NCBI GenBank assembly: GCA_005223375.1
Contig: RXOD01003931.1
Span: 1-36,290 of the forward strand
Source of the DNA: Amoebophrya sp. AT5.2
Taxonomy: Eukaryota > Sar > Dinophyceae > Syndiniales > Amoebophryaceae
Reading direction: 5' to 3'
Length of the DNA: 36,290 nt
The number at the start of each line of letters is the position of its first letter. Positions within the stretch are counted from its first letter, which is position 1. A program made the translations under genes and the position numbers. This document shows positions 8,057 through 26,467 of the stretch, in pieces. Below the pieces are notes generated by a model. It did no database searches. It was not told where the DNA came from and saw only the letters and a list, made by a program, of their open reading frames with translations.

Positions 8057-8594
8057 ACCCGTTGGAGCCGCTCCACTTCAAACACCACGACATTAGGAAT
8101 GAAAAGCAACCACATACCACACGCACTCGCACGCAGAAAGAAAACTTTTTACTATGGACATGAACTCGCAACATGCTGCGCAAACGTATTTTTGCCTTGT
8201 TCTTTTCATGCGACTTCCAGCTCCACAGGAACGTCGCCCACGCCCACCATTCGTCTTGTCATATTATAATGGCCGCCAGCAGAAACAGAATTCTTGCGCC
8301 CGACGGACCACTCCTGTTGCTTCGCCAAGTGTTACAACAGTCGGGAGGTGAGCGCTCGCTCGACACCGACCGCCATTATGTCCTGAGCATGTTGTGAAAG
8401 GCTCCGGTATGCATCCATATGCGACTGCGGTATGCATATAATGCAGTTCGTCGTGGTTCTGTTTTTTACCGTTTCATTTTGAAAGCATTCCCCTCCTCGC
8501 ATCGGGGATTCTGCGTCCCGGATCACAGATCGGAGATCATCAGAGTCGTTTATTACTGGAGCGGCGTTCTTGTTCAGGACGAGAACAGAATGCG
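8057..8594. other. Intergenic stretch without a supported gene
   Basis: I see no gene. Short open frames on both strands overlap and show no domain. The last bases before 8595 are the leader of the next gene. Confidence 0.5.
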
Positions 8595-11500
8595 ATGCAG
8601 CGGTGCACGTGCTTGCTCCTCGTCCGCGCGTTGGTCGCTACCACCATGGCGACGGCGGTCGCGGGGGTACCTCTACCTGCTAGCGACCAGGAGCACGCCC
8701 AAGCCCATGAGTCACCGTCAGCACCAGCAGACCCAGTCGGCGGGGTCTTCGGGAAAAGCGCGTGGTGTCCTGCGGGCATTGTTGCGCTCTTTCCGGAGGC
8801 CGAGATATGGCGCGCACTCAATGACGCGGAAGAACAAGAAATCGAAAACGAACACGAAGGGGGTGCCGCACGACAGCCCGGTCCGGAGGAGGGCGGTGGA
8901 AATCCTCGACCGCGTCCACGCGGCACATCTGCAGTTGGATTTACAAGCGACGCCGTCGAGCAAGAAATTGAAATTGGTTCCTTGTTGTACTCGGATGAGT
9001 TGCTGTCGACGGTTCTCCTGTCTCCAGCAGCGGCCTCGTCTGAGGCAGATGCGGATGAGAGCGCAGAGCCTGCTGGCGCTGAACCAGAGCAGTCCGGAGA
9101 CGCTGCGAAGAGCACCAGTCCGAAATATTTGTATCAACAACCAGTGGAGAGCTTGTTGTGCGCGCAAGACTACAGCAACAACGACTACGACAACGTTTGG
9201 AAGAGTGTCGGCTTCCTCCACGAGATCGCGCACTACTACGAGTGTGGGGACCCGTTTTCCGCAGATCTTGAAAAGGTGCTGGATGGCACGGAAGCAATTG
9301 CCGACAGCCTGTGCAGCCACTTGGAAGATCTGGCGGTTCCCTGTGGCAAAAGTAGACTCGTTCGCGTTTTTCCGACGACGATACTCGCTGAAGACGAGGA
9401 TGACGAAGAAAAGAGTGGTGAAGATCGCACAGGGGAACCGCACGACCACAACCTAAACCAGTCCGTTGCTGGAACGTCTGTGCCGCAAGAAGTGCAGGAC
9501 GCGCTAGACAAACACAAACTCAGGAGCGTCAGCTCCCATGCGGAAACGATGACGCGGACTACACCTTTAGCATACGGGCTGCATGCAGCGAAAGAATTTG
9601 CAGCTGGCTGTCTAGAGTTTGGCCTCGAAAGCCAAGCGCCTTCGCGGGCAGCAGGTGAAGAACCTCAAGCCAGCTCCGCCTTCGGAGAAGCAGGCGTGAA
9701 AACGCTTTTGTCGCACTTTCGCCGCGTATCGTTTGTGACGCTTCTCGGGATTGCGGCAGAGCGGGCAGTGGTGCGGGCTTCGGCGGCGCGTACGGAGGCC
9801 CCCAGCACAACGACCGTTGAGGACGACTACAGAGGGCGCATGATTGAGACGGCGAGACGGTTGACTGCCCTCCGGCTGGCGCTGCTGCCCACCGGCACGA
9901 CCGGCGAACGAAACCACGATGCCGTGCGCGCATCCGCCGGCGTGAATATTTCTGCGGACAAGCACCAGCAGCTGCTCGCGTTGCTCCCCCGTCCGCGGGC
10001 GCGCGCCGCCTTCGCAAAAGCTCTGAACCTCCTCGACGGCGTCGCGCACCAGCAGCAGGCTCGCTCCGGGTCGCAGAAAATTCTTTTCGTGGACCAGCAG
10101 GCCTTCAAACGGTCTACGTTCCGTACCGCGCTGTGGCACCACGCCGAGCGTGCCTTCCAGCGGCTTTCCGGCGGTGAGATCCTGCCGTCGTACCTCGTGC
10201 GAAACTTCGTGGACGCGACGAAGGACCGCCTGCCTGCGGATCTCGTCCACAACGCTCCGGCAAAGCAAATGGCCGCGTTTCTGCGCGCGGCGCTGGTGCA
10301 CCGAGAGGGATGGAGCGACGCGAAGGTCGAACAAGCGAGGCGCGGGCTAGTGGAAAACTTTGCAAACACAATGGTCGACCGACTAGAAGCACCGAACGCG
10401 ACCCTGGCCTACGCGCTGAAGGATTTTGCCCTTTGGAAACACGGAAGCATCCTGCACCCGGCGCCGAACCTCCGCGGCGCGTTCGCGGCGCGCCGGCACG
10501 CGTACGAATACCTCACGGCATTCAGCAACGGCATGGCACGGGGGCTAGCTGCGGTCTCCAGCTCGTCCCTTGCCTCAGCATCGGCAAACGCAAGCCCCAA
10601 GCTCTTCTTCGGCTCCGCGGAATATCAAATCGACATTTTTGAGTCCTTGGTCTTCGGGTGGCAAGCGGTGCGGACGTTCGGCATTTACCCTGAAGTGGTC
10701 CTGCGCGGGTACAAGGCGCTAACTGCGTTTTTAGAACGTCATCAAGCGCGCTGCAAAGATGCTCGAAATGAATTGCCCGTGGTTCCCCGCCCATGGTCGG
10801 ACTACGCGGAAATACTTCTGGACCAGCTGCGAGACCTCTTTGCACAGCAGGACGGAACGTTGCCGGTTTACTACGGTGGGGGCGCCGGAGGCCTGACCAT
10901 GGAAATTCGGTATTCGTGCCCAGGCCCAGGCCACCGCCATGACGAGAACGATGAGGACTCGCCTTCACGTCGACCGGCCTCAGTGCAGAAGATGCTCGCT
11001 GCGGAATGCGAGCTGCAACGGGCATTCCGTCCGCAAGGGGGGGCGAGCATTCCACCCTCGACTGCACGACGTAAAATGATCAACAAGTACAACGACTTGT
11101 TCGACCTGTGGGCACTCGAGCCTCTTCACGCGGATCGTGCGCTGGTAAAGCACAGCGGTAAACACTTTTCGCACTACGCGCAAGTCCAAATCCTAATCGC
11201 TGAAGAGGATCCTGAGCTGGCGTTTCCTATGCTGGATCTTGTGGAAGTAGATGCTGAAGAACTTGAAACTGGAGAGCGTCCTCGCGATCTTGGGGACGAA
11301 GCAGTAGAGTTGCGGGAAGTGCTCAATGCGGTGCCGGTGCTGGAGTCAGAAACGGGACAGCTTCGCACGACTGGCGATGTGCTCAAGGTGGCCAATGCGG
11401 ACTTTGCGGAGGATTTCAAGGACATCGTGCTCGGAAAGATTTTTCAGGTGTTAGGCCTGGCGGTTGAACCTCCGAGCATACCAGCATCTTCACCAGAAGG

Positions 11501-12602
11501 CAGCTCCTCACCACGAAAACGACCTAAGCCACCTTTCTACGTCGAAATCGGCGTGGGTCCTGGCGCGATCGAGCACAACACGCGCTTTCTCCGCACCATG
11601 CGCGGGTGGCGGGGCCTGCTGCTGGACAGCCACTACTCCCTTCCGCGCGTGAATCTGCACCAGGAGGTGGTCACCGCGGACAACGTCGTGGACTTGCTAA
11701 CCCAATACGGGGTGCCAGATTCCTCCTCCACCTCGCGACGAGGAGATGATCGCGATGCTGGAAGCGAGTTTGACCTCCTCAGCGTGGACGTCGACGGCGC
11801 AGACTACCATATTGTGCGCGCGATTCTGCTGTCCGAGAAGAAGTACCACCCGAAAGTTGTCGTCGTGGAACACATACACGGCTACGGGTGGCCAGCAGTC
11901 GTGGTCCCCCTGGACGCATGGCTGGTGCCGAAATCTTCTACTGCAATAAAACAACACTCGCAGTCGCACGAGCAGGCGCAGGAGCATCAGGAACTAGAGC
12001 AAAATCACCCGGAGCTTCTACAGGATGCAGCAGATGAGAGAGAGATGAAAGGCGAAGTAGATCAGGACCATACCCACCTGATGCACGCGAGTTCGGCGCG
12101 GGCGCTTCAGGAGCTTCTGAACGCCTTCGGATACAGCCTCGTATACTACGGCGACTTCGATCTTATTTTCGTGCGCCGGGACGAACTCGAACGCGCGCAA
12201 AGCAAGACGAGGTTGGAAATCATGGGGGAAGATGAAGATCAAAATGCTGTCGTAGAAGTCGTGCCCCCAGCGCGACCAGATGAAGTGGCGTTGAGGACAA
12301 CGACTACATTTAGGAATGCGGACAACCTGCTCACCTTGTGCAAACGGTACAAAGCCTCGCTCCGCACAGTCTTGCGCGACATTCGAATACTCGACAACGA
12401 AGACTACTGTAAATTTGAAAGCAATTATCGCTCTCCCTATCGAAATAGTACCCATAGCGGAGATGATCGGTTACTTGATCCACGTGAGGGAATTCAAGGG
12501 TATTCAGATCGCACGCTACAGACCCGCTTCTGGCGCGCTCGCTCGGACGCAAGCCAGCTCTTTTCGGTAGCGCAGCTGCGCGATCCAACTTTTGTGCTGT
12601 GA
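8595..12602 (+). CDS. Large secretory-pathway protein with C-terminal FkbM-type methyltransferase domain
   Basis: This is a single exon of 1335 residues. The first 24 residues are a typical signal peptide (hydrophobic core LLLVRALVATTMATAVAG), so the protein enters the secretory pathway. Residues 25-130 are acidic and disordered. Residues 180-950 are a long, mostly helical region with no family I recognise. From about residue 978 a methyltransferase fold begins: FYVEIGVGPGAIEHNTRFL (SAM-binding loop), then GWRGLLLDSHY, FDLLSVDVDGADYHI near residue 1058, and GYSLVYYGDFDLIFVRR near 1175. This order matches FkbM-like domains, in which SVDVDG is the diagnostic strand. Acidic insertions (about 1110-1160) interrupt the domain. 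A role in modifying glycans or small molecules in the secretory pathway is inference from the signal peptide. The substrate is unknown. Confidence 0.75.
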   Translation: MQRCTCLLLVRALVATTMATAVAGVPLPASDQEHAQAHESPSAPADPVGGVFGKSAWCPAGIVALFPEAEIWRALNDAEEQEIENEHEGGAARQPGPEEGGGNPRPRPRGTSAVGFTSDAVEQEIEIGSLLYSDELLSTVLLSPAAASSEADADESAEPAGAEPEQSGDAAKSTSPKYLYQQPVESLLCAQDYSNNDYDNVWKSVGFLHEIAHYYECGDPFSADLEKVLDGTEAIADSLCSHLEDLAVPCGKSRLVRVFPTTILAEDEDDEEKSGEDRTGEPHDHNLNQSVAGTSVPQEVQDALDKHKLRSVSSHAETMTRTTPLAYGLHAAKEFAAGCLEFGLESQAPSRAAGEEPQASSAFGEAGVKTLLSHFRRVSFVTLLGIAAERAVVRASAARTEAPSTTTVEDDYRGRMIETARRLTALRLALLPTGTTGERNHDAVRASAGVNISADKHQQLLALLPRPRARAAFAKALNLLDGVAHQQQARSGSQKILFVDQQAFKRSTFRTALWHHAERAFQRLSGGEILPSYLVRNFVDATKDRLPADLVHNAPAKQMAAFLRAALVHREGWSDAKVEQARRGLVENFANTMVDRLEAPNATLAYALKDFALWKHGSILHPAPNLRGAFAARRHAYEYLTAFSNGMARGLAAVSSSSLASASANASPKLFFGSAEYQIDIFESLVFGWQAVRTFGIYPEVVLRGYKALTAFLERHQARCKDARNELPVVPRPWSDYAEILLDQLRDLFAQQDGTLPVYYGGGAGGLTMEIRYSCPGPGHRHDENDEDSPSRRPASVQKMLAAECELQRAFRPQGGASIPPSTARRKMINKYNDLFDLWALEPLHADRALVKHSGKHFSHYAQVQILIAEEDPELAFPMLDLVEVDAEELETGERPRDLGDEAVELREVLNAVPVLESETGQLRTTGDVLKVANADFAEDFKDIVLGKIFQVLGLAVEPPSIPASSPEGSSSPRKRPKPPFYVEIGVGPGAIEHNTRFLRTMRGWRGLLLDSHYSLPRVNLHQEVVTADNVVDLLTQYGVPDSSSTSRRGDDRDAGSEFDLLSVDVDGADYHIVRAILLSEKKYHPKVVVVEHIHGYGWPAVVVPLDAWLVPKSSTAIKQHSQSHEQAQEHQELEQNHPELLQDAADEREMKGEVDQDHTHLMHASSARALQELLNAFGYSLVYYGDFDLIFVRRDELERAQSKTRLEIMGEDEDQNAVVEVVPPARPDEVALRTTTTFRNADNLLTLCKRYKASLRTVLRDIRILDNEDYCKFESNYRSPYRNSTHSGDDRLLDPREGIQGYSDRTLQTRFWRARSDASQLFSVAQLRDPTFVL

Positions 12603-12863
12603 ATAATGAACACCAAGTAAAGGCTAAGGCAGCCTTCTCTTAAAAAGCTCGGAATCCTCGCAAAGCTTCGACGATGGATTTTCTTGATGCGGGGAACACT
12701 GAAATAGTCCGTCTTCTTCATCTCACCGACACGGCAGATTTACGAGACAGCTCTTTGAGCTCCACAAGGAGCGCAAGCGTTCAGGGAGCTTAAGCGCTTT
12801 TATATTTATTCTTTGTTCGGTCGCTTTCGTTTTGTTGTCGTTGTCGTTATTAACGAAAGCAAT
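12603..12863. other. Host flank left of the element
   Basis: This is noncoding. A 9-bp inverted repeat (GCTTTCGTT at 12823-12831 and AACGAAAGC at 12852-12860) ends three bases before the element edge and may mark the target site. The three intervening bases are AAT. Confidence 0.5.
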
Positions 12864-13082
12864 AAATATATCAGCCTCGGCTTAACTGTCGCGATTCTTC
12901 TCGCTTGCGCGTGATAGATATTTAGTTGCGCATGAATGAATCCGAATGGTCCCGAGACCGATTGGTCGCGGGTCAAGAGCACCGATTCCGCAGATCATGA
13001 CCGATGGAACCGCTGCATACTTGAGGCACAGCTAAAGCTGCGACTGAATCTCACGAATACGAATGGCCCAGAAAGTCAGCCA
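12864..13082 (-). repeat. Split direct repeat B2 (outer 3' end of the element)
   Basis: This is a 219-bp copy of the B repeat, differing from B1 at one base (C at about 13014, T in B1). It contains an imperfect hairpin at 12951-12972 (CCCG, a mismatch, GACC, a GATT loop, GGTC, then CGGG). The outer edge is at 12864, next to host AAT. Confidence 0.92.
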
Positions 13083-13258
13083 GGCATCGGGAATGAAATG
13101 TGGAGACGCAGTCACGGCCCTTGCTGGAAGCTCGGGACGAATCGGAGAAGTTGTCATGCGACAAACTGGAACTAGTGAAGTGCAGAAAAACGGGAGAGCT
13201 CGAACGAGGCAGAGAGCTCGATGCAGAAAAAACCAACTAAAGGGCGAAGGTGGGAGGG
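13083..13258. other. Unique spacer between repeats A2 and B2
   Basis: These 176 bp have no second copy in the window. There is no coding signature, and G- and A-rich tracts occur on the plus strand. It is the part of the 3' end lying between the two terminal repeats. Confidence 0.6.
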
Positions 13259-13399
13259 TAAAACAGAAAATCGAGCATAAGCTCGATACTCACGAAGTTC
13301 CAAGCCCTTGAGAGTGAGGAATGAACGAATAGCGCAACGGAATGTTCTTGTAATCTTTTCGCGATCAGTCTGCCGGGGCTGGATCAATTTATCCATAAC
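13259..13399 (-). repeat. Split direct repeat A2 (internal copy)
   Basis: This 141-bp segment is identical to 26327-26467. It contains a perfect 7-bp hairpin, ATCGAGC-ATAA-GCTCGAT, at 13270-13287, and the short palindromic motif GGAT-CAATTT-ATCC near its outer end. It abuts B1 without a gap. Confidence 0.92.
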
Positions 13400-13618
13400 A
13401 AATATATCAGCCTCGGCTTAACTGTCGCGATTCTTCTCGCTTGCGCGTGATAGATATTTAGTTGCGCATGAATGAATCCGAATGGTCCCGAGACCGATTG
13501 GTCGCGGGTCAAGAGCACCGATTCCGCAGATCATGACCGATGGAACCGTTGCATACTTGAGGCACAGCTAAAGCTGCGACTGAATCTCACGAATACGAAT
13601 GGCCCAGAAAGTCAGCCA
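13400..13618 (-). repeat. Split direct repeat B1 (internal copy)
   Basis: This is the 219-bp partner of 12864-13082, with one mismatch. It sits between the pol 3' end and A2. The hairpin recurs at 13487-13508. Confidence 0.92.
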
Positions 13619-13932
13619 ACCGATACGAACAGCAACGATGAAGTGGCCGTTCTTGTGCGGGGACAGAGGCGTTGCTTGAAGTGAAACGAAGTAAACTGGT
13701 GCCATTCGGTTCTTGTATTCGTATGGCAGTGGAGTTGTAAACAGAGATGACACAGCCGTGAGAATGGAAGACAATAAGAGTGAAGTGAGGTTCAGTGACT
13801 CAGGACGACAGGTGTTCCTCTTCTCGGAAGGGACGTCGGGCAATAATTTTAAATTAGTTGCGCCCGAGGTACTCCTGGAGTCTTGAGTCAGATGAGCAGC
13901 TGTGCTATAGAACTATGCAGTGAAGGGAGAAT
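13619..13932 (-). other. Region between pol stop and repeat B1
   Basis: About 310 bp without a supported gene, presumably the 3' untranslated part of the pol transcript. Confidence 0.5.
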
Positions 13933-16900
13933 CTACTTCGCGAACAAGCTCGCGGAATACTTGGCGTACATCAGTGGATGTATGTGAAAACTCTTGTACT
14001 GGTGCTGAAAGACGTCGATTGTATACTCGTCCTCCCACATAGTGGACGTGGGGGTCCACCCCATGTGCGTGCACACTGCACATTTGAAGATCACGTGTGC
14101 GGGATTGTCGGATTTCCCGTCTTCGAGCTTTGGGTAGATTCCCAGTTCCGCCGCGCGGATTCTGAACCACAACGCGAGCGCCCTTCGGGGGCCGTAGAGC
14201 GTTGTACCGAGAGTTTTGCAAATTCCTGCTAGATCTGAGATGGTGAATGGGAGCAGATGCTCGTGTACGAGTGCCGCGGGGACAAAGATTTTAAACACTT
14301 CCCCGGGTTTCGGATCGACTTTCACTACTGGCACAGCGACTTCTGCCCATGGCGACATTTGGTCGCGCTTGATCATATCCGGCCGGACGTGGAGGAGGGA
14401 TCGCGGCCGCAATCCGGACTGCATCCAGAGAGAAAAGATCGCCCTCTCCCTGGCTGTAAGCTTGTAGGCCAAGCTCAAGTTGGGCGGCAGCGCCTTGGTG
14501 CTGTCGTGATCGAGCATGAGGGCTCCCAGTCGGGCGAACGTCTGCGCCATGAGGACGCTCGCGTGCGGGTTGTGCTGTTCCAGCACGTTGAGTGCCCTGA
14601 GCCGCATTCCGACCACGGAGACGTAGGCGTCGGGGTTCAAGTAGCCGCAATCCAAGAGGTAGGATCCTATTTTGTGTATTCCGTTCTTTCCGTCTTCATG
14701 GCCTTCTATGGCATGTTTTTAACAGCTGAAATCTGTATTCGAACCAGGGGCTAGTACCAAACTCCTGGAGATCTGCCCAATGGACATTGGGATGATTGTT
14801 TCGCAGCCACTCAGCCTGATCGCGCGACGAGTATCGATCTGGTTCAAAAAACGCCGCCGGCCAGTGTGTTCGACAGTACAACATCCAAATTCGCCATTTA
14901 GAATTTCGATCCGCGAGACCTCCATTGCGCATGTACCAATCCTCGTCTCTCCAGATCGTCAGGATGGATTGACTAGAGAGCGGCCATTCCTTGGCCTGTT
15001 TGCGACCGACGAGAGGTTTCGCGCGCGCGCGTCTGACCTTCTTGTCTTCGAACCACTCGATTTTGAGCTTGGGGTCGTTGTGCCAGTTGTTTTTCTTTCC
15101 GTATTTCTTCACAATCTTGGATACAGGTGGTGCCAATCTCCATCCATGTTTGCGGGCTTCCTGTGTTCAATGAACCAAAACAAAACTCAGCACTGGCTTT
15201 TTTACATTATTATGGGAGGCAGTCTAACTTGAATTGCTGAGTTGCCGTCTTCATCTCATCCGCTACTTCATACAGTATGCGCATTACATCTTCCCTACTT
15301 TCTTCGAACTTGGGATCGTAGATTTCACGGAGGGGCTTCATCATGTCATCCCTTGTACAAGCATCGGCACAGTTTGCGTTGGTGCTTATGTAGCCGTAGA
15401 AGTGGTACGAGTCTGGCAAATGTTCCTGCTGGAAATCATTCAAAACGAAGCAAGCAGCCGACGCTAAAACATTGTCCAGCTGGCCTTTAACTATGCCGTA
15501 CACTGTTGCAACGTTGTCGACATGGGCAATGATGTGATAACGTTGCATCCGCTCCTTCCAGAGGCGTTGTGCGACAGTGACGGCAAGGATTTCGTAGAGG
15601 AGGATTGTGCCATTTCGAAACAGCTCTGGGAGCTCCTTCTGCTTCAGATGCAAAGAGTATCCGACTGCTTCGGAGTTGTGGTCGAAGAAGACTCCGCCCA
15701 AAGCTGCGTGGTCATCTTTAGCCGATGCCGATGCATCGGTCATCAAATGCACGCGACCCTTTTTTGCTGCGAATCTTCTTAAGACAGAGGGCGGCTCGTC
15801 TTCTACTATCTGAGCTGCTTTGCGAATTATGGCGATGGTGTTTTCTCTTACCCTTGCGCTTTCGACTTTTTTGAGGAATTGTCTCTCGTTGCTCGTGAGG
15901 TTGTAGAGGAAGCGGGTGACAGGGATACTGCGCTTATGCTTCCTTGTGAAAAAGGCATGTACTAAGAGCCCCGCTAGCTTCTGGATTTCCTTGAATATGA
16001 AGCCCGTGCCCCCCTTGAATTTTGTAGCGGATTGCGAGAGGATCTCAACGAGACCATCCACTCTTTCGCGTGCTAGCGCTTTCTTTTTCGCCGGGAGGTA
16101 GAAGGAAATCTCATCCTCGGTGGGTGCTGCCATTATGCCTAATATTTCAATTTCCTCTCCGTACTTGCACACTTCTGTCTTTTCTGGCGCTACGGCCACG
16201 CCGAGAATGCTACACAACCGACGCACGGCACACGAATAAACGTGGATGCGCGCGGGGTGTCCGAAAAAAATTACATCGTCTACGTATACGTATGCGGGGA
16301 TACGAAGTAGCGTATTAATGTAATGATTTAACGGTTCGGAGCACGCTGCGCAGAACGCAAAGACCGAATGGACATTGCCAAACGTCATGCAATTCATGCG
16401 CCCGTATCTCATTGCCTCCTTCTTCGGATCGTACAGCATAAATTGATTTTCCTTGGGGTCCCTGACCCCGTATTGCATATACGCCCTATACAAATCAATT
16501 TTTCCGATCGCCGGGACAAATGAGGTCCCGCTGTACTCCGGGTGTGGCAGTGGTAGCGTGCTGATGTCCTTCCACGACATCTTACCTTCGGCTTTGCGCT
16601 TGCGTCCTTGTGTCACGCCCTTAGTAACGTCCCGCCTCGCCTGGTCGTGGGGATCGGTGTACCCCGGATTTAGGCACGTGAGAATGCCTTGAATGATATC
16701 CGGTATTCCCGGAAGAGTAAGGTGTTCAGCGATAGGCGAGCACATTAGGTTACGCAGTTTCTCATTCGCGATGGGACGCGCCTTTTTATAGGTGCCGTCG
16801 TCGAGGACTTTTTGTCCGATCCCGAAGAAAGGAAAAGTGTATTTATCGGGATCTAGCTCATTTTCTTGGAGCTCTACTCCGAGGACGCCGCCAAGCAGAT

Positions 16901-17627
16901 CAACCACCGCGGCGGCGCTCCGATCCTGCACGTCCTTGGTCTCGAAGGCGTAGGGGCCGCTCCTCATCTTTGTTTTCTCGGCCATGGGAATGTTGTAGTC
17001 GACTTCTCCTTCTTGTACTTCCTCATACCTTTCGATCGTTCGGTAAGGGTTTCTTCACTACGGTTGGTTCCGATAATTGAAGCCACAACAAGAAAAAAGT
17101 GAACGGAATACAACGAGAAATAAAATAAGAATTTTGCTTCAGCGATCGCACCTTGCGACTTCATCGTCAGTGAGCTTCCTGCCATTCCATGCCCCGTAGA
17201 TGGGGAGCTTCCCGTGGACGTCAAACCCTTTATTCACCCTCCCTTCTTTTGCGAAGAGCATGGCTCTACGTCCCTCGTCGAGGTACTCGGTCGTTCTTCC
17301 GAGATGCCCCCAGACCCATGAGTTCATCTGCCTCGTTTTGTACTCGGTATCGTAGTTGACGTAGGACTTGTTGATGTCCACTATGTGCGGCAGCCGCGCT
17401 TCTTCCCATTCGTTCATGATTTTCTTCACCGCGCTCATATCGAGTAGCTCTTCGAGGTCGGTGAGGGTTTCGTTTAGGCGTCCCGCCTCTTCACGTGCTA
17501 TTCGTTCATCTTCTTCTTCCTTCCGCTGTCGCTTCGCGGCCTTCTCCTCGGCTTCCGCCTTCTTTTGGGCGAAGAGGGTTCGCACTTCTTCGAAGGCCTC
17601 TCTTCTCGGTTTCGAGAGGACCGCCAT
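13933..17627 (-). CDS. pol: Pol: reverse transcriptase - RNase H - tyrosine recombinase, four exons
   Basis: Minus-strand exons 17627-17152, 17028-15229, 15137-14758 and 14666-13933 join to 1129 residues. Residues 1-60 are a charged helix. The RT core includes GKIDLYRAYMQYG and the YVDD active-site box near residue 407. RNase H follows, with its D-E-D-D set in HLMTDAS (about 584), LYEIL (637), HVDN (665) and NCADACTR (718). The C-terminal part is a tyrosine recombinase. Its box I Arg lies in SGLRPRS (about 975), a YGPRR motif stands where HxxR is usual, then GW, and a likely nucleophile Tyr in WEDEY (about 1099). RT-RNase H-YR in this order defines DIRS-order retrotransposons. The introns (123, 91 and 91 nt) are GT-AG. 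The first joins DDEVA to RYEEVQ and the third joins LQEF to GSYLLD, both smoothly. The middle one (15138-15228) is less certain. ATG 17627 follows an in-frame stop. The bulk of the call is secure. Confidence 0.88.
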
Positions 17628-18373
17628 CGTGGCGGTCAGCCCGGTGCGTTAGCGGCTGCGAATCTTACATTTTGCTCGACTTGTGAATGGTTTATTAATG
17701 AAGAATTAAGAAGGACGTAATGGACTCACCTGGATTTTGGAATTTTCACACAAGAGATTAGGTGCGTGCGGTTTGTTTTCTTTCCGATTTGCGAGTGAAA
17801 AAGATGTATTTGTGATCGATGCGCGAACCTTCCGCTCCCGATGATGGTTCGACGATCCCCCCACGCCCTCGCGACGTCTCGATCACTCGCTACGACGCCC
17901 ACGACTCAAATCGAACGATGAGACCGAAGCCTATGTGCTCACATACTTCGAATCCCGAACTTTCTTCTTCGCGAAAGGCGCAGTCCGTTATGCGACTTGC
18001 ATCGTTCCCTTTTTTCTTTCATACATGGATGCGTCGCAAAAAACAAATTTAAATTGTTGGTAGCAGTTGTTCGCCAGGATCAAGGCCATGCGACAATTTC
18101 CGGAATGTGCATAGGTTTCCGTTCTTCAGCATGTATATCGCTATACAATGGCGCGCGATTGCACCGCTGTACAATGGCGCGCGGTCTTCTTGTTTCATCT
18201 CTTCTTTGAAGTAAAAATGATTTTACATGACCCGCCGTGCGGGTTTTTCGTGGTAGCTTTTATTGCACCCCCCTTGACCATAGCTGGGGGGAAACCTTAT
18301 TTCGTTGTAAGTAGTCAACAATCGGCCCGCACCAAGGGCGTCTTCTTCAATGAGAATGAAAAATTCCAAGAAA
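17628..18373 (-). other. Spacer between gag-like gene and pol
   Basis: About 745 bp without a gene. On the plus strand it holds a 14-bp direct repeat, TACAATGGCGCGCG, at 18144-18157 and 18170-18183. It also holds a perfect hairpin, ACCCGC-CGT-GCGGGT, followed by a T run (18230-18248). It probably contains the gag 3' region and a pol promoter or leader. Confidence 0.5.
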
Positions 18374-21300
18374 CTACGCATTTGCGTCTTTCGGTTCGTC
18401 ATCACATGGCGTGCAGTACTGTTCCGTGAATGCATGATCCCACTCACAATCACTTCCTTTCCGACACGACAGGACCTTCTTGTCTTTCTTGCCTAATATC
18501 TTGTATATGCCGGCACCGTGGACTGGACACGACTTCTTATCATTATACATCTTGAGGGCTTCTCCGTACTCCTTCTTTGCCTTCTTTGCTACCTCCGGTA
18601 GCGCCGCCAGCTGCAGACTGGTCAGTCCTTTGCCGGCTCCCTTCTTTCCACCTCCTTTGGTTTCCTGATCTTTCCCACCGGGTGGGTTTTGCGGATCGAT
18701 GTAGTTTCTGTCATACTCGCCTTTCCCGACCTGGTCGTGCTGGTAGCTTTGCTGATACTGGTAGTGGTGGTCGTATTTTCCTCCATATTTTCCACTGTTT
18801 TTGTTGTTCCAGTCGTATTTGCTGCCTTTGTCTCCGGGCTTCTTCCCGTACTTGCCTCCTCCTTTCGTATTTCCTTTTCCGTATTTTCCACTCCCTTTGT
18901 AGTAGGGTGAGTCCCACTGCGATCGGTCGCCCGGGTTCTTGCCTTTCTCCCCTTTCTTTTCCTTCTGATTCGGATCGCGCTCAACAGGATACACATCCTT
19001 CGCCCAGTCGCCTATCAGCGAGATGAGCATGTCCACTGTCGTGTTGGGGAGGAGGCGTGTCATGAACCGATCGGCTAGTAAGAGTACTGCGTGCGTTTTG
19101 CTCCTCCTTTTGTCGTAGTCAGTAAAATGTTTGTGCAGGCCCTGCGCCATGATTCTGGAGATGAATGAGGCGAAGTTCACTTGCGCGGTGAGAGGATCGG
19201 CCTGCCACAGCGGGGTCAGCACGTAGAGCAAGATCACGATGACTTCTGAAAACAGGTAGTTTCTGCTCATCTTCTCGGCATGCTTGGTGGGGGCAGCCTG
19301 AGGATCAAAATTCGACTTCGACGAGTACGGCAACACATCTTGCTTGACTCCCCTCGCCAGCTGCTGAATCTCGGAGAACTTCACTTCCGTCATCGGTTTC
19401 CCATCCATGCCGGTGAGCCCAGCAAAAATGAGATGCTCGCGGCCTAAGCTGCTTTTGGTCCTGTCGTGATGTTTCAATGCAAATTGGTGCTTGCAGTGGA
19501 CGGAAGAACAAGATTTTCCGTGAAAGAAGAAATCAATACACGAGACACCACCACAAGAGATAGAAATAGAGAAGAAGTTGGCGCGGCAGCATGAAGTACC
19601 ACTTGATCATGCTTTTGAACACTTCCAGGGTGGCTGAGAGTTCTGAATGCCTCCAGCACTCCTTCATCTTGGAGATGGCGGGCCAAGGTACCGACGCCGG
19701 CTCGGCTACGTATGCGTTCGTCAACCGCTTGACGTGCTGTTCCTCCAAAAGGCCACTCATGGCCAGCTCCGCATACATGCGGCACAGTTTGTCGAGCGGT
19801 ATTGTTTCGGCTTGTGTTGTGATCGCCTGTGCCGTGGAGTGGAGGGTGAGGGCATATAGCCGCGGATGCTTCGCGACGCGCTGCGTCCTCACTCCCTGTT
19901 CTTGATCCAGGCTCACCTGACCGAGCAGGGTTTCGATGTCCTCCCCCATTTCGCGGCACAACCGCGCATTAAGGTTGCCGTGGCGGTCGATGATGGCGCT
20001 GTCCCAGTACTCGACTGGAATTCTTTCGTCTTCGCGGAACGGCCGTTGATAATCATCCGGGTCGCCTTCGTCCAAGAAGGGGCGCGCGGATCATCTCTTT
20101 CGTGACACCATCGATTCCTACTCCGACGGTTCGTTCCGGCAGTACGAGGATCGGACTCCGCCGCTGCAGCGACTGCGCAAGCGCGCTCTGATTCTGTTTC
20201 AATCTTAGCTCTGCCAGCTCCTGCATACACGACTTCCCTGTGATTTCGTCGATGGTAGGAATCCTGCCGTTTTTCGCGTACTGCTGAGTCGCGTATACGC
20301 TTTCATTTCGCATTTGGCGGATGATGTTAGCTTCCTCCGGCGTTAGTCCCGGCGGGAGGCTCGTCGCTGCTGTCGTGGTCGCACTCGCGGTGCTCGGTGC
20401 TGCAGGCGCCCCTTTGCCGCCTTTGCCGCAGCCTGGATTTGGCGGCCGGGTTGTTTATCACAGGGACTCCTTTTCCTGCGCCTGGCGCGGGCGGTGCGTT
20501 CAAGTAGTTTGAGTTGAAGCCCGTGCTCTGGTAGTAGTCGACTCCTCCGAAACCGTCCCAGTTGACTGGTTCCCCCGCACCTGGTTGCGGTTGCTGTTGT
20601 GCGCCGGCTTGATCGGTAGCCATCATTTCTGCGTCCGCCTCGACTTGGGCTGTAGCTTCCCACTGCTCGAAGTATCGCGCCTTCGGGAAGTCCTTCCAGG
20701 GGGGGAAATCGCTGGATTCGTTGAATGGTTCTTCATCGACTTCCATTCCGTCTCCTCCGACCACCACTTTCGGCGGGGGCTGGAACATGTCGTAGAAGCT
20801 CTCGATGCGCTGAGCCACCATCTCTGCGCCGCGGCCATGAAACGGCCACACCGAGCAGCTCGCCATCGCCTTGATAGACTCTTCCGGTAGTGGCATCAGG
20901 TCGCTCCACTTGCTCAGCTGATTCGTGACGTTGTACTGCACTTGATCTGTGCCTGTTTTTAAAATGAATGCAGTGAAATCAGATGTGCCTCTCGATGGTA
21001 CTAAGGGGTTCTCACCAGGACGAGCGAATAAAAAGAAATAAAACCTGCAATGAGGAAGAACTTGTGGACGTCGTCTTCGTCCAAGAGTGGCATTTTGACG
21101 ATGACTTTCGCTCGGAAGCAGCACCACATCCGGTGGGCGATCCGCGGCTTGTAAATCCCTTCCTGGGTGAGCAACAACTTCAACGGGAGCGGCCAGCACG
21201 CGGCCGGGCCGAAGATCTCGCCGAAGACTGCCAGTATCGCTGCGAATTGTTCTGTCGCCATCATCCCCTCGGGGCCGAGAAACCGCGCCGCGACGATGAG

Positions 21301-22047
21301 GTCTTTTCCGAACTTTGCTGTTGCTGCTCGCTTGTTGCCGTCGAGGGTCATGAAACAACAGAAGCGCGTTAACGCGGCGATTGCCGTGGCCGCCAGGTTT
21401 TCACCCCAGGCCTCACTTTCTTCATCGGCAACTTCGACCGGGTAAGCAGGAGTACTCGATTGGAGTGCCGACAATAAGTTGCCGCACACACCGTTTGGTG
21501 TTGCTCGGATGTACTTCCTCGGGGCCTCCTCGATTGCTTCGAGTAACTGCTGTTGCTCTTGCCAGTACGCTTCGGCATTTTCACGTATCTTCTTGACCGT
21601 CGCCCCCTTCACGTGTGCCCCGAACGTGACGCGCTCGTCGAACATGTCGGCCACCAAATTCTGATGTGCCTTGTCGTCGATCTTGCTGTCGATCTGCTGC
21701 GCGGCTTCCTGGAGTCTCGCGTAGTTCTCCTTGAAGTAGGCTTCAGGATCGAACGTGTTTTCCTCCATGCCGAAGCTCTTGCGCTTCTGGCGCAGGTTCT
21801 GTACTGCTTCCTCCTGCTCTGGTGTTAGGCCGCTCATTGCGACATCCTTGAACTCTTGGAGGCGTTGCGAGGATGATGATGCGCCGCCCTGCTCGATCGC
21901 AGATGTGCTTCCTCCCAACAGGTTCGTCGCAGCTGAGAGTAGTGTGCTCCCTTTCTTCTGGGCTCCTTTCTGCCCTTTGTTGGGTGCCGGCGGGCGGCCG
22001 TCCTCTCCTGGTCGCGGCGAAGAATTTTTCGTCGTCTCAGACTTCAT
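18374..22047 (-). CDS. gag: Gag-like structural protein with CCCH-like zinc motif, multi-exon
   Basis: Proposed minus-strand exons 22047-21045, 20952-20554, 20432-20109, 20065-19600 and 19460-18374 join in frame to 1092 residues. The introns at 20953-21044 (92 nt) and 19461-19599 (139 nt) give smooth joins (FFLIAG to TDQVQY; KSMIKW to TKSSLG). Those at 20433-20553 and 20066-20108 are weaker and could instead be +1 frame changes. The N-terminal part is basic and Ala/Gln-rich. The middle is helical (for example FASFISRIMAQGLHKHF), as in capsid domains. A Gly/Tyr/Lys-rich low-complexity stretch follows (about 18650-18950). At the C-terminus, C-x20-C-x5-C-x3-H (ending SCRKGSDCEWDH) resembles a CCCH finger with a long first spacer, in place of the CCHC knuckle common in Gag. 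Position upstream of pol, basic low complexity and a zinc motif support Gag; no sequence family is recognised. ATG 22047 is the first plausible start. Confidence 0.6.
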
Positions 22048-22570
22048 CTTGTTCGCAATGAACTCGAGAATAAAAAGGTCGCACTTCCTTGATCGCGCGA
22101 CTGTTTTTTCTATACGTTCGCTCTTGTTGGACGATGGAGTGGTGACTGGCTTCACTTCATCTCTTTCATCGCTATTTCTCCCTTCGTGGTGCTGTGCTCG
22201 TGAGCTTCCCACGAAGACGCGACCCTTTCACGACTCCCACGAAACCACTTTTCCCCTACGAACATGTGCTTCCACATTTTTCCATCGACGTTCCAGATTC
22301 TCGGTAGCGTGGGTCGTGAAGTGAAACAAAATAAATTTCTTCTCGATAAGCCTTTTCTCGGCGTAGTCCTTCACTCAGTGGCCTATTTCAACCTCGGTCC
22401 TCCTTAGACCGTCGCGCAAGCTTCCGTATTCCTGCTCTCCTGGAGTGTCGGCATGCTCCTACTTTTCAACTTCTCTTGAGCGAACGCCGTTTCCGCATTT
22501 CCTTCACCTGCGGGAAGTAGTATGAAGCTTGTCTCATTCTTAGCAAATCTATATTCAGCCAGTCATGCAT
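22048..22570 (-). other. Spacer upstream of the gag-like gene
   Basis: About 520 bp. The gag frame stays open to 22212 without an ATG. The remainder shows no coding signature. It is a possible promoter or leader region. Confidence 0.45.
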
Positions 22571-23557
22571 TCACGAAGTAGAGGTGGTGACTTCCAAGAA
22601 AGAAAGAGAAAATTTATACTGCTCATTCCGCGAGCCGAGTTCACGGCGGAGCTGTTTCGTCTCGTGTTTGATGCCCTTTACCTCCGCAAGGAAGTCCACC
22701 TTGGTTGCGAGCCTCTCTTGCTCGAGCTTTTTCGATTGTTCCTTGATCTCCTTGCGAAAACCGCGCACGTAGCCGCAGTCGACAATGTTTTTGAGCTCGA
22801 CGAAGGCGTTCTCCGTTTTGGTGTTCCACTTCGTCTCGATCTTGCGCGCGAAGCCATCGGATTCGTCTTTGATGTCTTCGTGCAAGCTGCTGTTCACTTC
22901 CTCGATCTGCTCCGACAACGCCTCCAAGCGTTCGAGGATGCAGCTGTTCTTCTTCTTCTTGATAGTACACACGTCGTCGATGTATTGCGCTTCCGGCGCT
23001 TCGTCGTAGTCTCCATGAGAAATACTGGGCGTAGACGGTGCGTCAGAGGCGGATCCGACGGGGGCCCCGCCGAGCATCCGCGCAACTTCGTCGCCGTGCG
23101 GCAGCAACATGTGCGCCGACTGCTGGAGGAACTGAAAGGTGGAGTGCTTGGCACCGTGGGGCATGCTCGCGGACGAGGTGCCCTCTCCTTCTTTGTTGAC
23201 GATGAACTGTGCAGCCGCCGCGATCTGGGTGGAGTGTGAGGCGAATTTATCCCGTTGTGAAAAATCAGCTTTAGATACAGGGCGCTGCCTGTGAGGTGAC
23301 CAAGTAAACGATACCAACTTGCATTCTTCCTTCATTTGTTCGCGGCTGTTGTTTTTGATCGTGGTTTCGCGCATGGCGGCGCTTAGATGATCCCTGATGA
23401 AGCGCAAAATGTCCACGTCTTCCTGGTTCTGCAGTTCCTTCAACTCGGCCACCGAGGCCGCCTGAGCGCGTGGCGCGAATGCTTTCTCCATGGACCACAT
23501 GATCTTGCCTTCCAGTGGGTGCTTCTCGTTCTTCCACCCAGTAAGTTCGTTATCCAT
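22571..23557 (-). CDS. Element-encoded coiled-coil protein of unknown function
   Basis: This has 328 residues from a true ATG at 23557, 15 nt after the previous stop. The N-terminal 100 residues are mixed helical, 130-190 are Ser/Pro/Gly-rich, and from about 195 to the end is a charged coiled coil (LERLEALSEQIEEVNSS and KKLEQERLATKVDFLAEVK). Coiled coils are common in structural and nucleic-acid-binding retroelement proteins, so an ORF1-like or accessory structural role is possible. No family is recognised. Confidence 0.6.
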   Translation of the reverse strand: MDNELTGWKNEKHPLEGKIMWSMEKAFAPRAQAASVAELKELQNQEDVDILRFIRDHLSAAMRETTIKNNSREQMKEECKLVSFTWSPHRQRPVSKADFSQRDKFASHSTQIAAAAQFIVNKEGEGTSSASMPHGAKHSTFQFLQQSAHMLLPHGDEVARMLGGAPVGSASDAPSTPSISHGDYDEAPEAQYIDDVCTIKKKKNSCILERLEALSEQIEEVNSSLHEDIKDESDGFARKIETKWNTKTENAFVELKNIVDCGYVRGFRKEIKEQSKKLEQERLATKVDFLAEVKGIKHETKQLRRELGSRNEQYKFSLSFLEVTTSTS

Positions 23558-23572
23558 TACTTGTTGCTTCGA

Positions 23573-23884
23573 TTACTTTCTTCGAAAGTGAGGACGGGGA
23601 ACTGTAGCTATACCAACTGCTTCTTTTTCGATGACTTCAGTGGGGTCTTCTCCACGCCACTCGAGGACTTCGAAGAGTGAGTCGTGAGCTCGTATGCCAA
23701 TGCTAATACTGCGTTTGTCAACTGTGTATGCTAGTAGTTCTTGTTTTATCCGTGCTCTCCAATAGCGTTGGGCGCCGACGTCGATTTTACCACTGCAGAC
23801 AAACTGAATAATTTTGCCATCGTCAACGACTTCAGTATGTGTACGCGTGAGCACCATAGTATCCTCGAAATGGGCAAGCACCAT
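23573..23884 (-). CDS. Small element ORF, 103 residues, C-terminal ATVPRP signature (second of a pair)
   Basis: Starts at ATG 23884, two nucleotides after the stop of the preceding ORF, and ends at 23573. It has exactly the same length as that ORF. Both alternate hydrophobic and polar residues as beta strands do, and share a sparse pattern (a Gly, then F-x2-S, then G-x2-R-x-Y) at similar positions. They may be diverged tandem duplicates. The C-terminus is ATVPRPHFRRK. No family is recognised. Confidence 0.55.
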   Translation of the reverse strand: MVLAHFEDTMVLTRTHTEVVDDGKIIQFVCSGKIDVGAQRYWRARIKQELLAYTVDKRSISIGIRAHDSLFEVLEWRGEDPTEVIEKEAVGIATVPRPHFRRK

Positions 23885-23886
23885 AA

Positions 23887-24198
23887 CTATTTCCGCGTTC
23901 GAAATGGGCGTGGTAACGTAGCTAAACTACAAGTGAAGTGCTCGCGATTGAACTTGGCGATTTCGAGATTCGAGTGACCGGATCCTCGGTTGTCAGGTAG
24001 GCGACCTTTCGAGTAACCTAGAGGCACTTGGTGTGCATCAACTCGGTGGATCTTGGTTTTGCAGTATGTCCTTCTTGGGATTCCGAGTTCGCTTGTGTGG
24101 AAGTGCATGCAATATTTTTCTTCACCTCTGGCTACATCAGCTTCCTCTTTATCAATGAAGACCGCGGGGCCTGGTAGATGATCCGTAAGAAGTATCAT
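23887..24198 (-). CDS. Small element ORF, 103 residues, C-terminal ATLPRP signature (first of a pair)
   Basis: Starts at ATG 24198, nine nucleotides after the upstream stop. It has 103 residues with a His/Cys-containing middle (KYCMHFHTSE) and ends ATLPRPFRTRK. The stop codon and the next ATG are separated by only TT. No family is recognised. Same length and tail as the next ORF suggest shared ancestry or a shared sorting signal. Confidence 0.55.
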   Translation of the reverse strand: MILLTDHLPGPAVFIDKEEADVARGEEKYCMHFHTSELGIPRRTYCKTKIHRVDAHQVPLGYSKGRLPDNRGSGHSNLEIAKFNREHFTCSLATLPRPFRTRK

Positions 24199-24207
24199 CC
24201 CATCGAG

Positions 24208-24657
24208 TTACCATTTGAGCAGGGGTCGAGGCACTATTGCTATTTTCTTCACTACTTTTCGCCCTTCTTCTCTTTCGATTCTACGTTCTCGCGCTTCGAT
24301 GTTTGCTCTTTCGTACCACCACGGTAGTGGCCCGCTTTCAGGGTCGCGTGGGTCAGCTATCGGAAAATATGGGTACGGTTCTGGTTTTATCTTAGTGCTA
24401 AAGATCTTTTCGTTCGGATTTTCTTGCTGCCAGTGAGAATATCCTCTGAAATCTGAGAAGGTGAATTCGCGATTTTCGGCGCGACGCCAGCCTGGCAGCA
24501 ATTGCTCTTCCTGGTCGAGCGGTGGTGGGACCGCCGCTGCAAGTGCCGGCGTAACAATGGAATTGTAGTTCTTGTAGCGCTGTGCGTTCAGACTAATGTA
24601 CGGGTTCGAGCTTGTCCTTGACCTTTTCGGTGGACAGTAGATAAGATTGAAAGGCAT
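24208..24657 (-). CDS. Small element ORF, 149 residues, C-terminal AIVPRP signature
   Basis: Starts at ATG 24657, 53 nt after the macro-domain stop. The N-terminus is Pro/Tyr/Asn-rich, with aromatic residues in WRRAENREFTFSDFRGY. A charged helix (YERANIEARERRIEREEGRK) follows, and the end is AIVPRPLLKW. It is the third ORF with the same C-terminal signature. No family is recognised. Confidence 0.5.
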   Translation of the reverse strand: MPFNLIYCPPKRSRTSSNPYISLNAQRYKNYNSIVTPALAAAVPPPLDQEEQLLPGWRRAENREFTFSDFRGYSHWQQENPNEKIFSTKIKPEPYPYFPIADPRDPESGPLPWWYERANIEARERRIEREEGRKVVKKIAIVPRPLLKW

Positions 24658-24710
24658 CGCGCTGCATGATGATGTCCTGTGCTAATCATGCGGGCGCAAG
24701 AAAAAAACAT

Positions 24711-25379
24711 CTACCACTTTTTGGCGCTTTTCTCGATGATTTGGAACTCGATCATCTTCCCTACTCGCTTAGTGCATGTGGCTGCAGCTGCTTCTATTGC
24801 TGCTTTGTACTCGTTCCAGTTCCCTCGTGCTAGCCCACACCCGATTCGAGCGGGAAATGCAACGACGCAAGGATGATCAGACGAAAAGTTCTTGTTCGAT
24901 ATGGGACTCGGCCGCATCATGACAAGCTCACAGAGATATTCCCCGCACTCACGTAGTGCATCTTTGAACCAGTTGAGGCGCATGATAGACGAATCCCCTT
25001 CAGACGGCCCCCCCGGCCGTTTCTGGCCCATCATGGCGATGACGACTGGGCCCCAGTAACTTGCTCTTTTCCACCACGGGATCGATGCTGGCGTGCTCAC
25101 GATGATCGTACCGGGTTGGCGGCCCCAGTATGCGTCCGAATAGATGTCGGAGTACGGGTAGTGCCGGAATACGTCTTCCGCTAAACCGGCTGCCGGTCTG
25201 TTCACCATGGTGCAGTTGCACTGGTGAATGATGATGTGGGGGGCGCCTGCCGTCTCCCCTTGGAGGATATCGCCGGGGCGGGTCACAACCATTTTTCCTG
25301 TGTCTCGTGCTTTGTCTTTTCCACTGAGTGAAGTCAAAATCAGGAGCTCGTTAAGCAAAGTGAGAATTTCATCTTCCAT
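24711..25379 (-). CDS. Macro domain protein (ADP-ribose binding or hydrolase type)
   Basis: 222 residues from ATG 25379, one nucleotide after the previous stop. The macro fold is recognisable in order: GDILQGETAG (strand and adenine-side loop), IIIHQCNC with the ribose-side Asn, AAGLAEDVFRHYPYSDIYS, PGTIIVS, VVIAMMGQKRPGG, and FPARIGCGLARGNWNEY (phosphate-binding loop). The GLA...F.YPY.D.YS and IGCGLA.G.W combination is that of the ADP-ribose-1''-phosphate phosphatase/ALC1-like macro group, members of which also occur in large DNA viruses. Such domains bind or remove ADP-ribose. In this setting it could counter host ADP-ribosylation or process tRNA-splicing by-products; both are inference. 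The last 10 residues are Lys-rich (SAKKW). The fold is secure, the role unknown. Confidence 0.85.
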   Translation of the reverse strand: MEDEILTLLNELLILTSLSGKDKARDTGKMVVTRPGDILQGETAGAPHIIIHQCNCTMVNRPAAGLAEDVFRHYPYSDIYSDAYWGRQPGTIIVSTPASIPWWKRASYWGPVVIAMMGQKRPGGPSEGDSSIMRLNWFKDALRECGEYLCELVMMRPSPISNKNFSSDHPCVVAFPARIGCGLARGNWNEYKAAIEAAAATCTKRVGKMIEFQIIEKSAKKW

Positions 25380-25380
25380 C

Positions 25381-25545
25381 CTATCGCACTAACGTTCTGA
25401 GTGCTGGATTGTGACACATCACCGTGCGGGGAGCGTCAGACGCCTCACTCACTGTCTTCTCATGCATCAGCTCAATGCACTTGCGCAGCTCTCGTAGAGG
25501 CAGGTTGAAACAATGACGCAAACACGACGCCCCGGCTGCAGCCAT
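25381..25545 (-). CDS. Short ORF directly upstream of the macro domain gene
   Basis: 54 codons from ATG 25545 with two CxxxC-like Cys/His positions (SCLRHC). The stop TAG is followed by G and then the macro-domain ATG. It could be a small first cistron, a leader peptide, or the first exon of the macro gene. No family is recognised. Confidence 0.35.
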   Translation of the reverse strand: MAAAGASCLRHCFNLPLRELRKCIELMHEKTVSEASDAPRTVMCHNPALRTLVR

Positions 25546-26326
25546 GTTTTGTCGAGACGACAAAGCAGAAAAGCTTTAATTCATTTTTTCTTTTTCTGGT
25601 GGAAAAATATGTGGGCATGACTGCAGGTGGCAGTTCTGCAGTACGGGTGACCATGTTGCCATGAGAGTCTGCACCTGCTCGCTGACGCCTAGTGCACTAG
25701 GACGCCAGCCACATGCCCTGCGCCCCGCTTGGAGGAAGCCAGGCCGACTTGCTCCGACTCAACGCACCGACGTCCCCGTCTCCTCGAACTGAATGGGAAC
25801 TAAGTCCACGCATCAGCCGGGGGGATCCCTCAGAGGCCCTTGGCAATGTATGTTTCTCAGAATGTCGGTTCACTGGAATAAGACAGCGAAATCGTGAATG
25901 CGGGAACACAAAACTGGAAGTGAAGAGTAGGTTGTTCTCAGAGGGTGCCTACGCCCCTTGTTTCTTTCATTGTGTGTGCGTATGCCGGAGCATCTTGCCG
26001 TGCGACGCCTGGGCGTGCGTTTGCTTACTTGAGCGTGCCGAAGTCAGAAATTCATTTCGAATGAAGCGCTGTCGTGAAAATGCTCGTAGAAATTGAGCAA
26101 CAGCGCGAGGGCCCACAGAAGAGTGGTTTGTCATCCATGGATCGACGTGGCCGTAGTAAAGGAGAAGCTGTGGATCACAACGGTAGAGCAACTTGCACCA
26201 TGCAAGAGGTCTAACCGAGGTGCAAACCCGACGTCCCTTCCGAGAACACTCGAGGTTCCAAACACCGTAGCTGGGGACCAGCCACAAGTGGAGGATCCAA
26301 GAGCTGGGTCACAGTTTCAAGAACTC
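25546..26326 (-). other. 5' region of the element between repeat A1 and the first ORF
   Basis: About 780 bp without a convincing gene on either strand. It is expected to hold the promoter and leader of the element transcript. The open frames at 25713-26096 (plus) and 25967-26287 (minus) overlap each other and lack signatures. Confidence 0.5.
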
Positions 26327-26467
26327 TAAAACAGAAAATCGAGCATAAGCTCGATACTCACGAAGTTCCAAGCCCTTGAGAGTGAGGAATGAACGAATAG
26401 CGCAACGGAATGTTCTTGTAATCTTTTCGCGATCAGTCTGCCGGGGCTGGATCAATTTATCCATAAC
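26327..26467 (-). repeat. Split direct repeat A1 (outer 5' end of the element)
   Basis: This 141-bp repeat is identical to 13259-13399, including the hairpin at 26338-26355. Identity stops at 26467, exactly where A2 abuts B1 in the other copy. That fixes the 5' boundary of the element. The terminal plus-strand bases are AAC (GTT on the coding strand). Confidence 0.93.

Follow-up and report, generated by a model that had tools for sequence, protein, structure and literature searches.

What kind of mobile element occupies 13,604 bp of a dinoflagellate contig, and what might its accessory gene do? This question is raised by a 36,290-nucleotide stretch of the genome of Amoebophrya sp. AT5.2 (GenBank assembly GCA_005223375.1, contig RXOD01003931.1; here called the window, and C135 among our contigs), whose minus strand carries, at 12864-26467, a unit bounded by split direct repeats. 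The unit is very probably a complete member of a giant lineage of the DIRS order, with split direct repeats of the PAT/Ngaro type. It carries an accessory gene for a putative ADP-ribosyl hydrolase (SCO6735/TARG1/DarG class) and would move by way of circular complementary DNA (cDNA) and a tyrosine recombinase (YR).

Split direct repeats and their recurrence

A repeat search of the window at a minimum length of 40 returned only two direct-repeat families, one of 222 nt (12861-13082 and 13397-13618) and one of 141 nt (13259-13399 and 26327-26467). The two copies of the latter, termed A, are 100% identical (141/141), as the initial annotation had claimed. The 222-nt pair differs just at 12863 and 13013; 12863 is an edge base outside the true repeat, so the B repeat is 219 bp with one mismatch, at 13013 (218/219), again as first described. 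On the coding strand the order is A1 (26467-26327), the open reading frames (ORFs), B1 (13618-13400), A2 (13399-13259), a 176-bp spacer and B2 (13082-12864), which places A1 at one end and B1-A2-spacer-B2 at the other, as had been proposed. A2 abuts B1 to the base, in agreement with the earlier statement that the unit edges match the B1/A2 junction. The repeat features are:

26327..26467, minus strand: A1, left terminal repeat and 5' end of the element, 141 nt identical to A2
13400..13618, minus strand: B1, 218/219 identical to B2
13259..13399, minus strand: A2, directly abutting B1, identical to A1
13083..13258, minus strand: spacer between A2 and B2, 176 bp
12864..13082, minus strand: B2, right terminal repeat and 3' end of the element, 218/219 identical to B1

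A chance origin of the repeats is excluded by their length and by their recurrence in other elements. A search of the assembly with the focal reverse transcriptase (RT) produced 70 rows, of which 20, forming a distant group that includes C564 and C2325 (E 1.9e-25 to 8e-4), were set aside. The remaining 50 rows lie on 43 contigs and, counting one RT row per contig, all 43 have a same-strand YR match no more than 1.5 kb downstream. Of 20 YR loci examined with about 1.5 kb per side where the contig allowed, 13 possess B1/B2 repeats of 212-329 bp with 97.8-100% identity, and the YR proteins of the 12 such loci other than the focal one are 34-48% identical to the focal YR. Near-perfect repeats within elements together with deep divergence between them are as predicted by renewal of the repeats through reverse transcription.

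Further copies with A1...B1A2...B2 ends exist in the source genome, A1 having been located in four elements: the focal element (13,604 bp), C737 (∼15.7 kb), C336 (∼13.0 kb) and C253 (∼11.4 kb). The suspected giant subgroup is thus borne out by four elements of 11.4-15.7 kb, and the recurrence of such elements across one genome marks the large size as a feature of the lineage, not of a freak copy. In the RT tree (25 rows, midpoint root), in which C253 is not a row, the deepest branch puts the focal C135 and C737 on one side and C336 on the other. In C737, B sequence precedes the A1 copy up to the contig end, which we take to reflect an assembly path running through the repeat. The C801 and C737 contigs stop inside repeats; split direct repeats may thus be places where the assembler breaks, in which case the number of complete elements would be an under-count.

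Coding capacity and the macrodomain

The coding features of the focal element, in coding order, are:

24714..25379, minus strand: macrodomain protein ORF, 222 aa, domain at residues ∼29-217, first large ORF
24211..24681, minus strand: ORF of 157 aa, no family match
22574..23572, minus strand: ORF of 333 aa, no family match, coiled-coil look by eye
21004..22227, minus strand: Gag-region ORF, 408 aa, weak relatives at the corresponding position in C737 and C675 (tblastn E 4e-9 and 3e-6)
20953..21044, minus strand: candidate 92-nt GT-AG intron, proposed to join the 408-aa ORF to the next frame, ends checked
19536..20090, minus strand: Gag-region ORF, 185 aa, relative in C737 (tblastn E 4e-8)
18377..19606, minus strand: Gag-like ORF, 410 aa, Cys/His finger at its end (CPxHGA...C...C...H, by eye)
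17142..17648, minus strand: N-terminal part of the pol ORF, 169 aa, with matches beside RT in 26/29 of the relatives' RT loci
17029..17151, minus strand: candidate 123-nt GT-AG intron between the pol N-terminal part and RT, where the EukProt gene model P0001 joins, ends checked
15213..17054, minus strand: RT (YVDD) and RNase H, from alignment and RVT_1 (E 5e-5, below the gathering score)
14699..15166, minus strand: N-terminal part of the recombinase, a single ORF with the YR in e.g. C253
13936..14718, minus strand: YR, 261 aa, from alignment, AF2 model and fold matches to Cre/XerH

The placement in the DIRS order with PAT/Ngaro-type repeats, made in the initial annotation, is upheld by the RT, the RNase H residues, the YR fold and the split direct repeats. 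RVT_1 matches all 25 members of the RT alignment, the focal one included (E up to 1; best 1.6e-9), and RT D187 and D260 and RNase H D440, E488, D513 and D564 are invariant (25/25), the first D of YxDD being replaced in three of the 25. The trait of the order, a YR in place of a DDE integrase, is present. Among 17 aligned YRs, the K, xxR and W are found in 17/17 and the first R and the Tyr in 16/17 each, with H or Y preceding xxR, and the focal YR model (AF2, pLDDT 77) folds like Cre/XerH. The earlier description of a Pol carrying RT, RNase H and YR holds for the domains; the single Pol does not, as RT-RNase H (15213-17054) and the YR (13936-14718) occupy two ORFs, each in its own frame. The candidate introns and the macrodomain had been overlooked. 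Relatives of the 410-aa Gag-like ORF occur in C737 (tblastn E 3e-6) and C451 (E 1e-4), and its finger also in a C675 ORF. In C675 a single open frame spans the site of the 123-nt candidate intron. Candidate GT-AG introns of 73-78 nt in the relatives' YR are convincing in C451, C1846 and C1313 (three of six tested), ambiguous in C675 and unconvincing in C45 and C1823.

The macrodomain, encoded in the 5' part of the element, lies on the same strand as RT and 5.7-7.8 kb upstream of it in six elements, the focal one included. The element protein has the macrodomain fold, in the SCO6735-like subclass: His24, Asn27, Gln85 and Gly128 of SCO6735 correspond to H52, N55, Q119 and G182, which are invariant in the seven aligned rows (C24 and C918 are left out of this alignment). 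The nonsynonymous divergence (dN) of the macrodomain is 0.37 and 0.46 in two pairs, with saturated synonymous divergence (dS); dS is saturated in three of four comparisons, and the sole defined dN/dS is 0.08 (RT, C675/C451). Amino-acid change is far slower than silent change. The key residues suggest an active enzyme.

Some macrodomains are binders of ADP-ribose only, and it is possible, if rather unlikely, that the element protein is likewise a mere binder or a structural part of the particle with no hydrolase activity. The position that we take to be that of the TARG1 aspartate is Ala184 in the element macrodomain. In addition, the position of the catalytic Lys of TARG1 and DarG is taken by Gln (PMC9411070). 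However, SCO6735, which also lacks the catalytic residues of TARG1/DarG, is described as an active hydrolase for which Gln85 is essential (PMC9411070), and it is this Gln that is invariant in 7/7 rows here.

SCO6735 removes ADP-ribose from thymidine in DNA (PMC9411070), and the class is described as stripping ADP-ribose off thymidine in DNA or off proteins (PMC9411070, PMC8501950). In the host, a profile search found seven rows of PARP-domain genes, six of them over the cut-off, and one row for a macrodomain that Pfam recognises. An element of the DIRS type should expose its cDNA in single-stranded form. Since the class acts on DNA or protein, single-stranded cDNA is expected and the host has PARP-type genes, the most likely role would be to strip host-placed ADP-ribose from the cDNA or from the Gag/RT proteins, which we would put at about one in three. 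More broadly, we tentatively propose, as a possibility short of an even chance, that one clade of giant dinoflagellate YR elements encodes its own DNA or protein de-ADP-ribosylase, which could shield the single-stranded cDNA or the RT/Gag complex from PARP-type modification by the host, as a counterpart of viral and antitoxin macrodomains. A literature search (titles and abstract starts, subscription journals being mostly outside its coverage) gave no retrotransposon-encoded macrodomain among the matches listed, and a term search of a review of retrotransposon accessory domains gave no macrodomain passage (PMC6338049).

No methyltransferase family is present among the Pfam matches of 12 element ORFs, and no DNA_methylase match among those of these 12 and 25 RT ORFs, in scans that also missed the YR and the macrodomain. 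NCBIfam profiles gave no match above the cut-off. The 5' parts of C336 and C737, and thus both RT clades, contain a small ORF with paired CxxC motifs ahead of Gag, which is not clear in the focal element.

Protein searches for RT relatives, which scored 7997 candidates sharing most words (296 for one stretch), returned three models only, P0001-P0003, all from eukprot. P0001 (eukprot g6338.t1) is a gene model of this window, with 244 residues matching exactly; P0002 and P0003 have no DNA match above 90% among the fetched loci. P0001 is an automatic model spliced from the pol and YR of the element, a mis-annotated transposon in the protein set; it leaves out the YVDD stretch and is therefore unreliable as a gene model.

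Points against and the remaining alternatives

Several observations weigh against a complete, hydrolase-bearing member of such a lineage. The macrodomain is found in six of eight clade I RT rows and in none of 17 clade II rows, and is missing on C1313, where 9 kb precede RT; the lineage can thus do without it. Pfam recognises it in 0/5 element proteins, the focal protein lacks a lysine equivalent to Lys34 of SCO6735, and no DarT was found in the host by profile search. For the YR, Pfam PF00589 is matched in 0/17 aligned proteins, and the Foldseek matches are weak (best E 4.7e-3, none below 0.001). A good B pair is absent at seven of the 20 YR loci, three of which are cut by a contig end (C1454, C520 and C1878); C363, C1129, C1175 and C439 are not so cut, C1129 having only a 64% repeat and C363 none in another 3.9 kb past the YR. 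C675 has no repeats over 13.5 kb. At the DNA level, the focal repeat region is not found again in the assembly, save for a 73% A-like match on C51. No empty site was found, the joined flanks matching only their own two ends. The recent insertion proposed earlier is still reasonable from the identity of the repeats, which should be renewed in each cycle. Finally, the focal Gag region shifts frame at two places with no convincing intron, for which reason the focal copy may be inactive.

Two of the loci met in these searches stand apart from the element. The 73% A-like stretch (C51:13187-16329) lies among several internal direct and inverted repeats on a contig with no RT or YR row, and is possibly a non-autonomous relative. 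A 761-aa ORF on the minus strand of C564:3200-7700 represents a second, distant RT/RNase H group (rows of 24-34% identity) and has an FGNVHSV motif in common with the focal RT; it may belong to another DIRS-like family.

The large size could in principle be secondary, an ordinary-sized PAT/Ngaro element having been enlarged by inserted or transduced host or transposon DNA, with the 5' half, macrodomain included, as a passenger. Several 5'-half ORFs with no family match and the weak Gag-region matches between elements are in keeping with this. We nevertheless consider it improbable, since the macrodomain keeps its strand and its 5.7-7.8 kb distance from RT in six elements, the total size is similar in four elements from both sides of the RT tree (C336 belonging to clade II, and C253 not being a row), and the macrodomain has dN below 0.5 with saturated dS. 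A giant element of the DIRS order with its own 5' genes is preferred.

Large size and extra genes might also be expected of an endogenous virus, or of a Crypton-related DNA transposon with a captured RT. This is very improbable given the linkage of RT-RNase H and YR on 43/43 contigs, and given repeats of 98-100% identity beside YRs that share just 34-48% identity with the focal one, a pattern that renewal through reverse transcription would produce. Least credible of all is an assembly artefact creating the repeats at 13400 and 26467, for although this is a draft assembly of 2759 contigs in which C737 and C801 end inside repeats, C336 and C253 each show this arrangement independently, and in both the flank at one end differs from that at the other.

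Integration, known relatives and meaning

The first three bases past B1 are NTT in 11/12 elements, and the flank beyond B2 starts with AT in 11/12 (edges by eye; the counts omit C801, whose repeat runs off the contig). No target-site duplication is seen at the three loci with both flanks read (C135, C336 and C253); the C336 left flank itself ends in TATTT, resembling the B end of the element. The NTT/AT junctions and the lack of a target duplication are consistent with a circular intermediate whose B-A junction recombines with a core in the target. A palindromic core at the B-A junction scores above 95% of shuffles in 8/12 elements. For the focal element such a core is not supported, as 0.24 of shuffles reach its score, and C2236 (0.26 of shuffles), C96 (0.10) and C2087 (0.08) also fall short. 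A GGCT(T)GGA-like motif near the A2 end, followed by a T run and a CCCACCC-like tract, recurs by eye in the B1-A2-spacer region of diverged elements (13083-13399 in the focal one), and may be a start or priming signal.

A cycle can be proposed, whose steps from RNA to circle we infer from what is established for the DIRS order. The RNA would start in A1, end in B2 and be reverse transcribed; the internal B1A2 would then serve as the template joining the ends, and the product would be a closed cDNA circle containing a single B-A junction. This junction would be recombined by the YR with a short target core (N-T-T against A-T-N), which would explain the lack of target duplication. The macrodomain could benefit the element by taking ADP-ribose off its cDNA or proteins, countering PARP-type modification by the host.

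The suggested dinoflagellate origin is supported by the spliced leader (18 exact sites in the assembly, 50 with ≤2 mismatches, 0 for the reversed control) and by DVNP genes (nine rows over the cut-off, 0 in 14 control genomes). The leader sequence appears alongside the word dinoflagellate in seven papers. Some of the 18 exact sites may be leader genes and others relics of reinserted mRNA. No spliced-leader relic was found in the element, the window holding two loose matches to the last 12 bases, both outside the element, vs 4.4 expected. The plus strand has an open frame of 1386 aa (8442-12602) that ends ∼260 bp before the element, which therefore probably lies between host genes. A fumarylacetoacetate hydrolase gene, a single open frame (E 2e-43), is found at 34314-35186 on the plus strand; other long plus-strand ORFs scanned near it had no family match over the cut-off.

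Both the host group and the repeat type have a precedent in SymbioDIRS-Dnmt3 of Symbiodinium (PMC5890265), and it is the size and the macrodomain that are new. SymbioDIRS-Dnmt3 is likewise described as a dinoflagellate DIRS-like element with A-coding-B-A-B repeats, an acquired accessory gene and a divergent RT poorly matched by Pfam; compared by description, its accessory gene is a DNA methyltransferase, Dnmt3, within Pol, whereas the macrodomain has its own 5' ORF. Ngaro elements (Cafeteria burkhardae, PMC8547959; Xenopus, PMC9210276) also show A1-ORFs-B1A2B2, the Gag/RT-RH/YR order and a YR in its own ORF. Their amphibian copies carry an accessory SGNH hydrolase unrelated to the macrodomain (PMC9210276), and the Cafeteria insertions are of 6-7 kb (PMC8547959), in contrast to 11.4-15.7 kb here. 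PAT elements have split direct repeats, RT, YR and, in Pat1-like forms, a Gag zinc finger, and differ in a methyltransferase domain (PMC4157794), none being matched by Pfam in the element ORFs scanned. DIRS1-like elements have RT-RNase H-YR and an NTT at the start in six table rows, and differ in their inverted terminal repeats, methyltransferase and smaller size (28 surveyed elements of 3974-6283 bp; PMC3266345). VIPER of kinetoplastids resembles the focal element in repeat layout (A1 5', B1, A2, B2 3' in T. cruzi and C. fasciculata copies), the passages describing it making no mention of a macrodomain (PMC6681497). The SCO6735/BT1257, DarG and TARG1 macrodomains (PMC9411070; PDB 5e3b, 2fg1, 5m3i and 4j5q) are described as cellular or toxin-antitoxin proteins, not retrotransposon-encoded ones.

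The finding of giant YR retrotransposons stands: they form a lineage that extends across a dinoflagellate genome, and the first reading of this locus is stronger than stated. The four measured elements are about twice the longest of the DIRS1-like survey (PMC3266345), and, with 13 diverged elements whose repeats are well preserved, this one small assembly provides a good set for studying co-evolution of the split repeats and the YR core. The macrodomain would join the short list of retrotransposon accessory enzymes (methyltransferases, SGNH hydrolase). If it is active, ADP-ribosylation of DNA or of RT complexes may be a eukaryotic defence against retroelements and, if the de-ADP-ribosylase reading is true, the element would be evidence that ADP-ribosylation restricts retroelements in protists.

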